Assembly: GCA_016927245.1 (NCBI GenBank)
Contig: JAFGNA010000016.1
Coordinates: forward strand, 1-34,044
Origin: Candidatus Woesearchaeota archaeon
GTDB lineage: Archaea; Nanobdellota; Nanobdellia; Woesearchaeales; WJKR01
Length of the DNA stretch: 34,044 nt
Reading direction: 5' to 3'
Shown here: positions 6,949 to 28,117 of the stretch, piece after piece
Layout: each line of letters opens with the position of its first letter
Position numbering within the stretch: position 1 is the first letter of the stretch
Translations under genes and position numbers: made by a program
The notes under the pieces: generated by a model
Seen by the model: only the letters and a program-made list of their open reading frames with translations
Database searches by the model: none
Told to the model about the DNA's origin: nothing

Positions 6949-7686
6949 TTAGTCGTTGTCCACCCTGGGCGCGAGGATGAACGCGAGCTGCATCTTGTTC
7001 AGAACGGCGTATTCTAGCCGTAAGGGGTAGTCGTTGCTGAACTTCACTATGGCCTTGTCCGCTAATTTTCCGCCCAGTATCATCTTCTTGAGGTATTCGA
7101 TGCTGTACTTCGATTTCTGCTTTCCTTCCACGACGATCTTGGTCTCCTCATCTGCAGGGATTTCGACCTTTGCTTTGGAGAGGTCTCCTGCCGAGGAGAT
7201 GGTGAGCTTGCCTTCCTCCGCGGCGAAGGTGACTGATTCGCCGATGATGTCCACGTCCTCTACCGCGTCGTTCAGCGTTGATGATTCTGTGGTGACGGTG
7301 GCGGCGAACTTGAGGTCAGGCACTTTCTGCTCCCGTTCCTCCGCTTCGATGATGGGGAGGTGGAAGGTCCTCGTGCTGGTCCCTTTGAGAATGATCTTGA
7401 GCTTGTTCTCTTCTTGCTCCAGGGTGAGCTGGTCGGCTGGTTTTGCCCGCCTGAGGACTTGCTTGAGGCTGTTGAGGTTGATGGTGATGATGGTCTCTTG
7501 CTTGACGTCGTACTCGACGAAGGTGCTGCTGAGCAGCTTGAACACGACCATGGCCACGTTCGCGGGGTCCATGGCGACTATCTGGATGGCGTCGGTGGTA
7601 ATCTTGAACTGGGTTTCGGCGACGAGCTCTGAGATGACGGCGATGCTTTCCTTGAGGTATTTCGGTTCTGCTAAGGTCATGCGCAT
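6949..7686 (-). CDS. pcn: DNA polymerase sliding clamp PCNA
   Basis: A 245-residue protein with the usual length of archaeal PCNA, which forms a trimeric ring on DNA and holds polymerases, ligase and nucleases. Visible family features are the opening MRMTLAEPKYLKESIAVISE, the DAIQIVAMDPANVAMV segment (about residues 33-48; compare GI...MDPS.VA/L), the linker/second domain with VEDVDIIGESVTFAAEEGKLTI, and the end YAVLNKMQLAFILAPRVDND, which corresponds to the PCNA C-terminal 'YLLAPRIE'. ATG 7686 is chosen over an upstream extension because it has a gggg purine site and a TATA box (7735-7746); ATG 7680 is an alternative. It follows RNase J on the same strand but has its own promoter. Confidence 0.95.
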   Translation of the reverse strand: MRMTLAEPKYLKESIAVISELVAETQFKITTDAIQIVAMDPANVAMVVFKLLSSTFVEYDVKQETIITINLNSLKQVLRRAKPADQLTLEQEENKLKIILKGTSTRTFHLPIIEAEEREQKVPDLKFAATVTTESSTLNDAVEDVDIIGESVTFAAEEGKLTISSAGDLSKAKVEIPADEETKIVVEGKQKSKYSIEYLKKMILGGKLADKAIVKFSNDYPLRLEYAVLNKMQLAFILAPRVDND

Positions 7687-7734: not shown

Positions 7735-7746
7735 GTTTATATAATT
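7735..7746 (-). promoter_or_regulatory. TATA box of pcna
   Basis: On the minus strand aattatataaac would direct initiation near 7713, giving a leader of about 27 nt before ATG 7686. Confidence 0.6.
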
Positions 7747-7756
7747 TGTTGAGCAA

Positions 7757-7781
7757 TAATTTATTTCAATATAGCTAATAA
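7757..7781. promoter_or_regulatory. A/T-rich element upstream of the pcna TATA box (weak copy)
   Basis: Plus-strand core atttcaatatagctaat resembles the element upstream of gyrA (atttctatatagtaaat) with one substitution and a one-base shift on each side. It lies about 11 nt upstream of the pcna TATA box. See the entries at 18886, 20567 and 27065. Confidence 0.3.
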
Positions 7782-12900: not shown

Positions 12901-13862
12901 CAGGCATCACCCCTCTCAAACAATCGCATATCAATCGCTATCAAGCTCTCCTGGACATCGTTCAGCAAATCATGCCATGCCTGCACCTTCGCAGCAACGA
13001 TACCCTCATCATCGAGCACCCTGACGAGGTGGTCGCTCGCCTTGTGGACCAGCCGCTCAATCTCCACCATGCGCACCAACGCCTCCTGGTACTCGCTCTT
13101 CTCCACATATATCTCACGCTTCCCGTCACGCTTGAGCGTCACGCGCTCCTCCTGCACGGGCTCCACAGCGGCCTGAGCGCTCGCAGGAATCCCTCCTGAC
13201 GGCTCCTCAGCGAACCGCTGCTCCACAAAAGGCCGTGCCTCCTCGGGCTGTTGTATCGCTTCAGGAGGCGCCTGGGGCTCAGGCTCGAGAGGGATATCCT
13301 CCCGCTCAGGACCTGAAGGGAGCGGCGCCTGGGGCTCGGACGGACCCGCAAAGACTGGTTCACCAGGAGCGACAGGCGACTGCTCAGGAGTCTCAGGATT
13401 CTCAGGAAGCTGTTGGAATAACGGTTCATCCTCGAACCCTTGCCGGGACTCAGCAGGAGACTCATTAGCGAAAGGAGCGGGTTGAGGCTCAGGAACGGGC
13501 TCAACAGGAACACCAGGTGATTGCCCCACAGGCTGAGGCTCAGGAACGGGCTCAACAGGAACACTAGATGATTGCTCCACAGGCTGAGGCTCAGGAACAG
13601 GAAAAGACTCCTCAGGGGCGGGCGGAACTGGAGCAGGCGCCAATGAAGGCTGAGCGGACCGCGCAGGCACTGCTCCTTGCGGCATCTGCGGAGGAGCGGG
13701 CTGCGGTAAAGGCTGATACGTAGCGGGCGCCTGCGGAGGATTGTTGAACGGGTCCTCTCCTCCTCGCTGTGAGCCTTGCTGCCCGTTAGCGAACGGGTCG
13801 GCGGGCAACGAGCGGTCTATAGGCGTCGTATCCTGCTTCTTGCGAAAATTGAACAAGCCCAC
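12900..13862 (-). CDS. Pro/Glu-rich linker protein with a C-terminal helical domain, first gene of the operon
   Basis: A 320-residue protein with a GTG start: GLFNFRKKQ, then about 220 residues of low-complexity Pro/Glu/Gln sequence (disordered), then a folded C-terminal domain from about residue 248 (REIYVEKSEYQEALVRM ... VQAWHDLLNDVQESLIAIDM ... LF). That domain is homologous to the whole next protein. The linker contains a 51-bp (17-residue) tandem repeat with unit PEPQPVGQSPGVPVEPV. GTG 13862 is preceded by a strong GAGGGGAG site; frame continuation to 14150 would overlap the aCPSF2 gene and has no conserved look. No transmembrane segment. The architecture suggests a tethering or scaffold protein. 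Confidence 0.75.
   Translation of the reverse strand: MGLFNFRKKQDTTPIDRSLPADPFANGQQGSQRGGEDPFNNPPQAPATYQPLPQPAPPQMPQGAVPARSAQPSLAPAPVPPAPEESFPVPEPQPVEQSSSVPVEPVPEPQPVGQSPGVPVEPVPEPQPAPFANESPAESRQGFEDEPLFQQLPENPETPEQSPVAPGEPVFAGPSEPQAPLPSGPEREDIPLEPEPQAPPEAIQQPEEARPFVEQRFAEEPSGGIPASAQAAVEPVQEERVTLKRDGKREIYVEKSEYQEALVRMVEIERLVHKASDHLVRVLDDEGIVAAKVQAWHDLLNDVQESLIAIDMRLFERGDA
13483..13600 (-). repeat. 51-bp tandem repeat in the Pro-rich linker
   Basis: The plus-strand sequence tgaggctcaggaac recurs at 13483, 13534 and 13585, exactly 51 bp apart; the first two units are nearly identical and the third is partial. In protein this is a 17-residue repeat, so copy number can change without shifting frame. 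Confidence 0.85.
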
Positions 13863-18885: not shown

Positions 18886-18903
18886 TTTCTATAAAGAAAA
18901 TAT
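18886..18903. promoter_or_regulatory. Shared A/T element upstream of scpB
   Basis: TTTCTATAAAGAAAATAT, an imperfect inverted repeat (TTTCT/AGAAA around a TAxA centre). The same 18 bases occur at 27071-27088 upstream of tfb, and a close relative is upstream of gyrA. It lies about 17 nt upstream of the scpB TATA box, the position of an activator or repressor site for archaeal promoters. Confidence 0.55.
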
Positions 18904-18920: not shown

Positions 18921-18930
18921 ATTTTTAAAC
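18921..18930 (+). promoter_or_regulatory. TATA box of scpB
   Basis: atttttaaac is centred about 27 nt upstream of ATG 18953; leaderless spacing. Confidence 0.55.
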
Positions 18931-18952: not shown

Positions 18953-19855
18953 ATGGGCGAGGTTCCAGGCATCGAAGAAGTGGAAGCAGTCCTATTCGCC
19001 AGCGGCAAGGCCATGGAAGAAGACCACATCAAGGAGCTCACCAGGCTCAAACCCCAAGAAACCAAGCAAGCGCTGGAAGCACTGAAGGAATCCTACGCCG
19101 GTAAGGACTCCGCATTGTTCATCTGGAACGAAGGCACCAAGTGGAAGATCAACGTCAAGGAGAAGTACGTCGGACTCGTCAAGACCCTCGCAGCGGAGAC
19201 CGAGCTGTCCATGCCTGTCCTGGAGACGCTCGCAGTGATAGCCTACCGCACCCCCATCCTCCAGTCAGAGGTCATCAAGACCAGGGGTGAAGGGGCGTAC
19301 GAGCACGTCGCCGAGCTCGCCGACAAGGGATTCATCACCAAGGAGCGGTTCGGGAGGAGCTACAAGCTCAAGATCGCGGACAAGTTCTACCACTACTTCG
19401 ACGTCACGGGCGACCAGGACATCAGGGATGCGTTCTCCCAAGCCAAGCAACCAGACCCTGAGAAGCACGCGCAGCGATTGCAGAAACGGCTAGGAAGGCT
19501 GCGGGTCGTGGACGCCGAGAGCGACGAGGACCGCGAGAAGGCACGCAAGGAGACGCAACTCGAGATCTATAGCATCGAGCAGCAGCGAGAAGACGACAAG
19601 AAGCACTACCTCAACGGGTTTGAATCACGGCTGCAGGAAGTGAAGGGGCGCGTGGACGAGGCAGAAAAAGACATCCTGGAGAAGAAGCGGGAAGCCGAGG
19701 CTCGACTGGCAGAAGAAGGGCAAGGGACAGGCGGGGAAGCGCCGACGAAGGAAGCCCTCAAGGAGCAAGAGAAGAAGGACTATGAGGACGAGGATCCCCA
19801 GGACTTCGTCAAGGATATCGAGTCGCGGATCGACGAGTTGACCAAGAACGAGTGA
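18953..19855 (+). CDS. scpB: ScpB homologue (segregation and condensation protein B) with C-terminal extension
   Basis: A 300-residue protein. Residues 1 to about 165 match the ScpB double winged-helix: EVEAVLFASGKAMEEDHIKE, then KYVGLVKTLAAETELSMPVL, ETLAVIAYRTPILQSEVIKT and VAELADKGFITKERFGRSYK. ScpB works with ScpA/kleisin and SMC to compact and separate chromosomes. The remaining about 130 residues form a highly charged, helical extension (for example KKRLGRLRVVDAESDEDREK and AEKDILEKKREAEARLAEEG), well beyond the usual about 180-200-residue length. ScpA and SMC are not in the window. Start is supported by the TATA box at 18921-18930. Confidence 0.88.
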   Translation: MGEVPGIEEVEAVLFASGKAMEEDHIKELTRLKPQETKQALEALKESYAGKDSALFIWNEGTKWKINVKEKYVGLVKTLAAETELSMPVLETLAVIAYRTPILQSEVIKTRGEGAYEHVAELADKGFITKERFGRSYKLKIADKFYHYFDVTGDQDIRDAFSQAKQPDPEKHAQRLQKRLGRLRVVDAESDEDREKARKETQLEIYSIEQQREDDKKHYLNGFESRLQEVKGRVDEAEKDILEKKREAEARLAEEGQGTGGEAPTKEALKEQEKKDYEDEDPQDFVKDIESRIDELTKNE

Positions 19856-20561: not shown

Positions 20562-20597
20562 AATTAATTTCTATATAGTAAATTCTATAGTGAAAAC
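20562..20597. promoter_or_regulatory. Two tandem copies of the shared A/T element upstream of gyrA
   Basis: Copy 1, AATTTCTATATAGTAAAT (20567-20584), and copy 2, AAATTCTATAGTGAAAAC (20580-20597), overlap slightly. Copy 1 with its flank shares the 14-mer AATTAATTTCTATA (20562-20575) with the tfb upstream region (27065-27078). They sit about 20-50 nt upstream of the gyrA TATA box. Confidence 0.55.
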
Positions 20598-20615: not shown

Positions 20616-20626
20616 GCTTAAAAAAA
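20616..20626 (+). promoter_or_regulatory. TATA box of gyrA
   Basis: ggcttaaaaaa; predicted start site near 20647, leaving a leader of about 40 nt before ATG 20686. Confidence 0.5.
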
Positions 20627-20685: not shown

Positions 20686-23178
20686 ATGAAAAAGGACGAA
20701 GAGACGACCCCGCCAGCAGCGACGCCAAGAAAACACGAGCGAATCATCCCCCGCGTCATCGAAGACGAGATGAAACAATCATACCTAGACTACGCCATGA
20801 GCGTCATCATAGGCAGAGCGTTGCCAGACGCCAAAGACGGCCTCAAACCCGTACACAGACGCATCCTACACGCAATGAACGACATGGGCATGAAGCACAA
20901 CACCGCCTTCAAGAAATCAGCGCGCATCGTAGGCGAAGTGCTCGGAAAATACCACCCGCACGGCGACAGCGCAGTCTATGAGGCCATGGTCAGGATGGCC
21001 CAGGACTGGTCGCTCCGCTACCCCCTCGTCGACGGGCAAGGCAACATGGGAAGCATCGACGGCGACAACCCCGCAGCCATGCGCTACACCGAGGCCAGAA
21101 TGAAACGCCTCGCAGAAGAGATGCTCGCCGACATAGAAAAAGAAACAGTCGACATGGTCGACAACTTCGACGGCTCGTTAAAAGAGCCTTCAGTCCTGCC
21201 CACCAAAATCCCCAACCTCCTCATGAACGGCTCCAGCGGCATAGCCGTCGGCATGGCCACAAACATCCCGCCGCACAACCTCACAGAGATAGGACAGGCC
21301 ATCATCACGCTCATCGACCGACCGGAAGCAGACGTCCAAGAGCTCATGCAGCACGTCAAAGGACCAGACTTCCCCACCGGCGGCATCATCCAAGGCAGCG
21401 CAGGCATCAGCAACGCGTACGCGTACGGCAAAGGACGCATAAAAGTACGAGCCGTCATCGAGGAAGAAGAGCGCAACAAAGGACGAAGATTGATCATCAA
21501 AGAGATACCCTACCTAGTCAACAAGTCCCTCCTCATACAACAGATAGCCGACGGCGTAAGGGAGAAGAGGATAGAAGGCATCAGGGACATCAGGGACGAA
21601 AGCGACCGGAAAGGCATGCGCATCGTCATCGAGCTCAAGAACGACGCCAACCCCGACGTCCTCACCAACCAACTCTACAAGCACACCCGCTGCCAAGAGA
21701 CCTTCAGCATCAACAACCTCGCACTAGTCGACGGCCAGCCGAAAGTCCTCGGGCTCAAAGAACTCCTGCAACTGTTCATCGACCACCGAAAAGAAGCCAT
21801 CACTAGACGCACCGCGTACGACCTCAAGAAAGCGAAGCAGAAAGCGCACATCCTCGAAGGACTGGTCAAGGCATTAGAACACATCGACGCCATCATCACA
21901 CTCATCAAGAAAGCGGCGGACGCGCAAGCAGCACAAGCCCAACTCATGACCGACTACGCGTTATCAGAGGAGCAGAGCAAGGCCATCCTCGAGATGCGGC
22001 TGTCACGACTAGCAGCCCTCGAACAGGAGAAGATAAGGAAAGAGCTGCAAGAAACACTAGTGCTCATCAAGGAACTCCAAATGATACTCGACGACGTCAA
22101 CAAAGTACTAGGCATCATCAAGGAAGAGACCAAGGGCGTCATGCTAAGATACGGAGACGCCAGGAGGACGAGGATAATGGAAGGAGGCGATGACGATGAC
22201 ATCGACCTCGAAGACCTCATCGACGAGGAAGACATGGTCGTCACGATCAGCACGGCAGGCTACATCAAGCGGTTGCCGATACACACCTACAAGGCACAGA
22301 AAAGAGGCGGCAAGGGCGTGAAAGGGGCGACGACGAGGGAGGATGACGCGCTCACCCACCTCTTCATCGCGAACACGCACCACCACCTCCTCGTGTTCAC
22401 CAACGAAGGACGAGTCCACTGGCTGAAAGTGTACAGGATACCCGAAGCGAGCAGGTACAGCAAAGGGACTGCTATCATCAACCTCATCAGCAAAGGAAAG
22501 GAAGAACGCGTCAGCGCAGTCATCCCCGTCAAGGAATTCGACGACCAGAACTACCTCACCTTCATCACGAGGAAAGGGACGCTCAAGAAGACAGTGCTAC
22601 GAGCATATTCTCGACCACGGCAAGGAGGCATCATCGCACTCAACCTCGCCGAAGGGGACGACCTCGTCGATGTGCGCAAGACCGGCGGCAAAGACCAGCT
22701 CCTAATAGCGACGGCGAAAGGCATGGCCGTCAAGTTCCATGAGCGTGACGTCAGGCCAACAGGAAGGGCAAGCACCGGCGTGCGAGGCATCACCCTAAAC
22801 GAGAGGGACAGGGTCATCGGCATGGTCAAGGCGCCTGACAACGGTATCCTCGCCACCATCACGGAGAACGGGTACGGCAAGAAGACCAGAATAGACGATT
22901 ACCGCCTCATCAGCAGAGGCGGCAAGGGCGTCAGAAACATCATCTGCTCACCGAGAAACGGAGACGTCGTGAGCGTGAAGCTCGTCGAAGACAACGACGA
23001 TCTCATGTTCATCACCAGGAAAGGCATCGTGATCAGGACCCCTGTGAAGGACATCAGCATCATCGGGAGGAACACGCAAGGCGTACGGCTCATGCGGCTC
23101 GCAGAAGGAGACAAGGTCGCCACAGCAGCCAAGATCGTAGAGGAAGAGAACGGCGAGGTGCACGAGACCGAAGAATAA
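20686..23178 (+). CDS. gyrA: DNA gyrase subunit A
   Basis: An 830-residue type IIA topoisomerase breakage-reunion subunit. The winged-helix core has [40 protein letters not shown], and the catalytic tyrosine Tyr134 in [11 protein letters not shown]. The C-terminal beta-pinwheel begins after an acidic stretch ([16 protein letters not shown]) and contains QKRGGKG (about residues 538-544), the GyrA box required for negative supercoiling, so this is gyrase rather than topoisomerase IV. In the quinolone region the Ser equivalent to E. coli 83 is kept, and position 87 is Glu. ATG 20686 is preferred to an in-frame GTG at 20590, which would lie upstream of the TATA box. gyrB is not in the window. Bacterial origin by transfer is established for archaeal gyrases. 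Confidence 0.95.
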
Positions 23179-27064: not shown

Positions 27065-27092
27065 AATTAATTTCTATAAAGAAAATATATAG
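27065..27092. promoter_or_regulatory. Shared A/T element upstream of tfb
   Basis: Contains TTTCTATAAAGAAAATAT (27071-27088), identical over 18 nt to the site upstream of scpB, plus the preceding AATTAA shared with gyrA, and runs into tatatagg. It sits about 28 nt upstream of the tfb TATA box and could also affect the divergent TRAM gene. Confidence 0.55.
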
Positions 27093-27116: not shown

Positions 27117-27126
27117 CCTTATAAGT
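27117..27126 (+). promoter_or_regulatory. TATA box of tfb
   Basis: ccttataagt; predicted start site near 27148, giving a leader of about 70 nt with a purine-rich gagaga before ATG 27221. Archaeal tfb leaders of this length allow post-transcriptional control, but I see no named riboswitch. Confidence 0.45.
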
Positions 27127-27220: not shown

Positions 27221-28117
27221 ATGGCCCCCACGCTGAAACGCTGCGCCGAGTGCGGCAGCATGAACATGGAATACCACCCCGACAAGGGGGAAATCATCTG
27301 CAAAGACTGCGGACTCGTCCTCGAAGACAAGATGATAGACTTCGACAAGGAATGGCACGAATCAGACGACAACGCCGAGAAGCGCAGACGAGCAGGAGCC
27401 CCGCTCACCTACACGCACGCAGACAGAGGCCTCGGCACCCAGATAGGAACACAGCAAGAACTCAGGAAACTAGGAGACAGCAAGTTCTTCCGCCTCCGCA
27501 GATGGCAGCAACGAACCATGACCGGCCTCGAGCGCAACCTCAAGCAAGCACTGTCGGAAATACACCAACTCACCAGCGCGCTCACCCTCAGCAAGCAAGT
27601 AGAAGAAGAATGCGCCCGCATCTACACCCTAGCAGCGCAGAAAGGGCTCGCCAAAGGACGGCAGATAGAAGAGCTCGCAGCGGCCAGCTGCTACATCGCC
27701 TGCCGCAACTTCGACGTGCCCAAGCACATCAAAGAGATAAGCGAGAAGAGCGGCGTCGACCGAAAAGTGCTGCACCGCAACTACAAGCACCTCATACGCA
27801 ACCTCAACCTGCGCGTGACGCAATCAGACCCGGCAGACTTTGTCTTCAAGTTCGCCTCCAAGCTCAAACTGTCAGCAGAGACCCAGACGCTCGCCATCGA
27901 CATCATCGAGCAAGCAAAAGAGAAAGCCATCACCTCAGGAAAAAGCCCTGTCGGCATCGTCGGCGGAGCCATCTACATCGCCAGCATGATCAACAAAGAG
28001 AAAAGAACGCAAAGCCAGATAGCCAAGGAGATAGGAGCGACCGAGGTCACCGTGCGCAACAGGTACAAGGACCTCATCGACAACCTCGACCTCGGCGTCA
28101 TCGAAGCAAGCGCGTAA
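27221..28117 (+). CDS. tfb: Transcription initiation factor TFB
   Basis: A 298-residue TFIIB homologue that bridges TBP-bound promoters and RNA polymerase. The N-terminal zinc ribbon uses C8, C11, C27 and C30 (RCAECG...ICKDCG). The B-reader/linker region follows with RRRAGAPLTYTHADRGLGTQ and IG (about residues 55-77). Two cyclin repeats (about 105-195 and 200-295) end in TEVTVRNRYKDLIDNLDLGV, the helix-turn-helix that reads the BRE. Length and all motifs are standard. It is the gene expected to act on the TATA boxes listed in this window. Confidence 0.96.
   Translation: MAPTLKRCAECGSMNMEYHPDKGEIICKDCGLVLEDKMIDFDKEWHESDDNAEKRRRAGAPLTYTHADRGLGTQIGTQQELRKLGDSKFFRLRRWQQRTMTGLERNLKQALSEIHQLTSALTLSKQVEEECARIYTLAAQKGLAKGRQIEELAAASCYIACRNFDVPKHIKEISEKSGVDRKVLHRNYKHLIRNLNLRVTQSDPADFVFKFASKLKLSAETQTLAIDIIEQAKEKAITSGKSPVGIVGGAIYIASMINKEKRTQSQIAKEIGATEVTVRNRYKDLIDNLDLGVIEASA

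Follow-up and report, generated by a model that had tools for sequence, protein, structure and literature searches.

A near-perfect palindrome recurs at promoters in the genome of this woesearchaeal archaeon, and its truly conserved copy lies upstream of cdc6, outside the window (i.e. the whole analysed stretch of 34,044 nucleotides, which is contig C4 of a genome of 24 contigs and 1,109,711 bases). We consider it probable that one sequence-specific, dimeric DNA-binding regulator uses this box as its operator. The sequence features on which this reading is based are (i) the symmetric 14-bp core, (ii) tandem copies spaced by 14 bp, (iii) placement, in this genome, at promoters only, just upstream of the predicted TATA, (iv) conservation within the genus and (v) the order-wide copy at cdc6. 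Together, they suggest that one protein may link about 30 boxed promoters, of genes for replication, transcription, translation and division, to chromosome replication.

The box spans about 22–26 bp, with a core of TTTC-YATATR-GAAA and A/T flanks (idealised form TTATTTTCTATATAGAAAATAA). In the window, the 18-mer TTTCTATAAAGAAAATAT is identical at positions 18886–18903, upstream of scpB, and 27071–27088, upstream of tfb, exactly as the first-pass annotation had reported. Allowing up to three mismatches yields one further match, which is the 18886 box on the opposite strand; dinucleotide shuffles predict none. The shared 18-mer belongs to a 14-bp palindrome (TTTCTATATAGAAA) that A/T stretches flank on either side. 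That annotation described an imperfect TTTCT/AGAAA inverted repeat; this holds for the scpB and tfb copies, which depart slightly from perfect symmetry, but the element overall is a near-perfect palindrome.

The scpB box (TTTCTATAAAGAAA, 18886–18899, 25 bits; boxes are given without strand) matches the tfb copy exactly, with the shared 18-mer extending to 18903, and recurs before scpB in the congener G001. A putative TATA-like element (TTTTAAAC, 18923–18930, plus strand), identified like those below by a scan of sequence and spacing, lies 23 nt past the box, and scpB itself occupies 18953–19855 on the plus strand (Pfam SMC_ScpB, E 3e-33). Upstream of gyrA, where two related copies had been noted, there are two abutting palindromes with a spacing of exactly 14 bp (box 1, TTTCTATATAGTAA, 20568–20581, 29 bits; box 2, ATTCTATAGTGAAA, 20582–20595, 22 bits), and this tandem layout is preserved in G001. 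They are followed by a putative TATA-like element (CTTAAAAA, 20617–20624, plus strand). The mechanical gyrA open reading frame begins at GTG 20590, within the box; ATG 20686 is favoured as the true start because of the TATA position, so that gyrA, recognized from its reading frame and order-wide homologues, likely spans 20686–23178 (plus strand). The tfb box (27071–27084), in which the 18-mer is repeated exactly, is the top-scoring site of the genome (34.8 bits) and lies 34 nt before a putative TATA-like element (TTATAAGT, 27119–27126, plus strand). Its gene (27221–28117, plus strand) encodes a divergent second TFB, recognized by 53% identity to the copy on contig C9 and to the TFBs found in relatives; the other TFB (C9:14290) is the common type of the order, and the box is present only at the divergent tfb. 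The weaker pcna form was also recovered (7764–7777, 26.2 bits), 19 nt from a putative TATA-like element on the minus strand (TTATATAA, 7737–7744), with pcna at 6949–7683 on the same strand (Pfam PCNA_N and PCNA_C).

We then scanned the whole genome with a palindromic matrix fitted on this genome, for which seed sites were chosen for similarity to the window sites; genes were called by a simple hexamer model (1,180 genes, 90% coding). The scan gave 28 sites above 20 bits, whereas 40 symmetric column-permuted matrices gave 0.5 on average and never more than 2, and the matrix trained here also detects boxes in independent genomes. The earlier view of a shared promoter element, rather than random intergenic noise, is thus borne out. 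All 28 sites fall in promoter regions. Three of them are inside called reading frames (pcna, pheS and one short frame), each at the 5′ end, where the called start is doubtful. Pairs of palindromes exactly 14 bp apart are present at gyrA, the uL3 operon, the L34e promoter and C21:73.6 kb. Among the 24 gene-oriented sites that have a TATA-like hexamer, the first such hexamer lies 16–24 nt past the box in 14, and the box is therefore predicted to be placed directly upstream of the expected BRE position.

Besides scpB, gyrA, tfb and pcna, boxes are found at cdc6 and a divergent TrmB-family gene, ftsZ, PAN, tRNA endonuclease, RNase Z, Trm5 and MBF1, and also at MazG, a MutY-like glycosylase, uL3, uS13, L34e, a pseudouridine synthase, PheS, an HTH protein and several unknowns. 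Weaker boxes occur near TyrRS and TFE-alpha, and one box lies 436 nt from a DnaG-like gene (named from its sequence; Pfam gives Toprim only). A single regulator tied to growth or the cell cycle had been proposed: the common element and the boxes at cdc6, ftsZ and pcna agree with this, but the set is far broader and includes ribosomal proteins, tRNA synthetases, tRNA processing, PAN and MBF1. The expected enrichment at replication and division genes is suggestive only, with about 18 of 30 boxed genes sorted by hand as information or division genes versus 6 of 20 genes with random boxless promoters. On contig C20, a stretch of about 1 kb with no gene call (52.9–53.9 kb, minus strand) lies downstream of a box and TATA; an Rfam search for a non-coding RNA behind the C20:53931 box gave no match. 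In G001 and in another genome, G005, this box lies 56–58 nt from RNase Z.

In this genome, nearness to cdc6 is no worse a predictor of a box than gene function. Three contigs (C4, C20 and C21) carry 22 of the 28 boxes (p 2e-11), and 21 of their 80 promoter units are boxed versus 9 of 416 elsewhere (p 9e-12). For the closed relative G011, a sample of 200 kb contains orthologues of 18 box targets, and all of these fall less than 70 kb from cdc6, a distance within which 100 of all 1,180 genes lie; given the size of the sample, this clustering is no more than a lead. In G005 and G046, the boxes are scattered over many contigs. GC skew, used to place the origin, shows no clear turn around cdc6. One non-promoter context was seen in G005, where a long intergenic stretch between two convergent genes contains six box-like sites within some 500 bp (C9:149445–149931), 31 kb from cdc6; this cluster could be origin- or centromere-like.

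Conservation differs markedly among the copies. In the congener G001, boxes recur at no fewer than 13 of these promoters, and both tandems (gyrA and uL3) are preserved. Conservation at orthologous promoters, which the first-pass annotation had made a test, thus holds for scpB and gyrA within the genus, but among 30 genomes of almost all different families, this one included, the box is kept at tfb in 4, at pcna in 2 and at gyrA in 5. By contrast, a significant box is present within 700 nt upstream of cdc6 at 52 of 62 named woesearchaeal loci; 50 of the 62 exceed 22 bits, compared with a mean of 0.9 for permuted matrices, even though no other genome contributed to the matrix. The logo of these cdc6 boxes is symmetric, with C/G at ±4 in 96–100%. 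Searching with the Cdc6 alignment of this genome gave, as its nearest named relatives, mainly MAGs of Woesearchaeota and other DPANN archaea. Matches to the 22-mer with up to three mismatches are found in 168 of 238 genomes of the order, while the reversed control is almost empty, and in the few-box genomes whose listed sites were compared, one site adjoined cdc6. In other families, boxes lie upstream of smc, TBP, gyrB, SRP54, uL11, S3Ae, uS2, HerA, IleRS and GlyRS (all named from sequence). Since the cdc6 copy is kept order-wide, whereas most genomes lack the copies at tfb, pcna and gyrA, the cdc6 box is likely the ancestral anchor and the promoter set lineage-specific.

The cdc6 box is central in an AT-rich intergenic region of 400–700 bp, which is usually common to a divergent TrmBL2-like winged-helix gene, and lies 120–550 nt from the start codon, unlike the promoter distance at other genes, which counts against the operator reading. 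The protein encoded by this divergent gene (C21:62679–63482) and/or its paralogue (C21:90181–90990) is the most likely binder, at slightly less than an even chance. Both score above the PF01978 cut-off of 25.6 bits (74 and 66 bits, respectively), so the candidate is assigned to the TrmB family; it contains PF01978 and PF11495. Its closest solved relative is TrmBL2, a chromatin protein and repressor of Thermococcales (PDB 5BOX, 5BPI, 5BPD and 5BQT), with which it aligns across nearly the full length (E 8e-22). The two are similar in size (264 versus 267 amino acids), and the candidate retains the Y50/D51 pair, which is listed as a DNA-contact pair (PMC4158304). The TrmB-family gene is present in 57 of 60 families, and the two TrmBL2-like paralogues are strongly conserved order-wide, with one copy usually divergent from cdc6. 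This gene adjoins cdc6 at 29 of 40 boxed loci versus none of 7 boxless loci (p 5e-4, which relatedness among the genomes makes optimistic). However, the cdc6 box persists at 11 boxed loci without that neighbour. No box was found at copies of the gene unlinked to cdc6, and the gene is therefore not consistently autoregulated; autoregulation was rejected on this ground. Presence or absence of the gene per genome was uninformative as a test of the binder, the gene being nearly universal.

Comparison with known TrmB-family regulons shows both likeness and difference. In Thermococcales, TrmBL1/Tgr acts on the TGM motif TATCAC-N5-GTGATA, and operators upstream of BRE/TATA lead to activation while those at the start site lead to repression (PMC4158304). 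The woesearchaeal box resembles these as a putative archaeal palindromic operator at many promoters, upstream of BRE/TATA as in the activating case: it is an inverted repeat with a TATA-like element 16–24 nt downstream at most sites, and the candidate binder bears the PF01978 and PF11495 domains. However, the core (TTTCYATATRGAAA) matches neither TGM nor TACT-N3-AGTA (PMC4158304), which weighs against the TrmBL2-like binder, and the Thermococcales targets concern sugar metabolism, whereas those here concern replication, translation and division and are anchored at cdc6. TrmBL2 itself binds coding and intergenic regions, whereas a defined palindrome would be expected to be bound here. Haloarchaeal CdrS (PMC7439475, PMC8406309) is comparable as a regulator linked to division genes (ftsZ); it is a ribbon-helix-helix protein encoded with ftsZ2, has 18 ChIP sites in Haloferax and is reported absent from DPANN (PMC7439475). 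Our literature search found no account of a TrmBL2-like protein for DPANN, and no earlier description of the box motif or of a Woesearchaeota regulon.

Orc1/Cdc6 itself could instead bind the box, in which case the AT-rich region upstream of cdc6 would be the origin, the single box its recognition element and the promoter copies a DnaA-like regulon tying expression to initiation. The most conserved box of the order does adjoin cdc6, at the centre of the AT-rich region, and it remains there in genomes whose TrmBL2-like gene lies at another locus or precedes cdc6 in the same orientation; the present genome has its boxes clustered around cdc6. Initiators doubling as transcription factors are known (PMC8203912). 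In Sulfolobus, Orc1-2, an Orc1-family protein, is a global promoter regulator whose ANTTTC element is fitted by the half-site ATTTTC (PMC9738581). Yet Orc1-2 uses a non-palindromic hexamer, acts on DNA-damage genes and is a non-initiator paralogue (PMC9738581). The box also resembles ORB and mini-ORB elements as a dyad adjoining cdc6 in an AT-rich region, but archaeal ORBs are asymmetric in use and monomer-bound, and several flank an origin, whereas here the box is single and symmetric, has no G-string and no G bias in its flanks, and shows no directionality, CTATATTG occurring in both orientations; further copies lie at dozens of promoters. The winged-helix (wH) residues of Cdc6 are unchanged in genomes without a cdc6 box, which argues against the idea; the GC skew at this region, with no clear turn, was uninformative about the origin. 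We regard binding by Orc1/Cdc6 as unlikely, but as the main rival to the TrmBL2-like candidate. Genomes that lack Cdc6 were uninformative as a test, since several have Cdc6-bearing congeners and the absences resemble assembly gaps.

A third regulator, such as MBF1 or the small HTH protein at C3:32569, seems rather unlikely to bind the sites: the promoters of both are boxed, suggesting autoregulation, but of these two only the MBF1 box is seen again in G001. A role as an origin-domain or chromosome-organising site (cf. parS, Noc and matS), its place in AT-rich promoters being incidental, is improbable. The concentration on three contigs and the six-box cluster between convergent genes in G005 would fit such a role, but this genome has its boxes at promoters without exception and at a preferred distance from the TATA, and in G046 and G005 they are dispersed across contigs. 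A crude six-frame regular-expression search for a ParB-box protein, made with a ParB/Noc-like binder in mind, gave background matches only. Intergenic DNA is A/T-richer than genes, which could produce similar promoter sequences by chance and with no common binder; this is scarcely credible given that permuted matrices of equal composition, by which chance likeness was ruled out, find 0.5 sites against 28, that the same promoters are boxed in G001 and that the cdc6 box is order-wide.

Under the preferred reading, of an operator bound by one dimeric regulator, we infer that a dimer would occupy the two TTTC/GAAA half-sites, spaced about one helical turn. At most promoters it would sit just upstream of BRE/TATA, which is where archaeal activators contact TBP or TFB, and would probably help or gate TBP/TFB there. 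Replication, division, transcription and translation genes would then obey the same signal as cdc6. A more specific version, which is possible but somewhat doubtful, is that a single protein bound to the box, either a TrmBL2-like chromatin factor or Orc1/Cdc6, acts at the woesearchaeal origin region upstream of cdc6 and that its sites have spread to origin-proximal promoters in this lineage, directly coupling the expression of replication, ribosome and division genes to origin state. If true, such sites would be what the DnaA-box regulon is in bacteria, in archaeal form.

The box bears on how growth is linked to replication in DPANN archaea: an order-wide cis-element by cdc6 that also marks growth-gene promoters supplies one DNA sequence and two candidate proteins, all named, that are testable in vitro without culturing. 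Two further features of the window were observed, i.e. a tandem repeat at 13483–13598 (unit 51 bp, 2.3 copies) and, at the contig end (33958–34044), a 21-bp repeat with copies 66 bp apart, whose minus-strand reading is a cysteine-rich repeat protein. The contig break probably falls inside the latter repeat.
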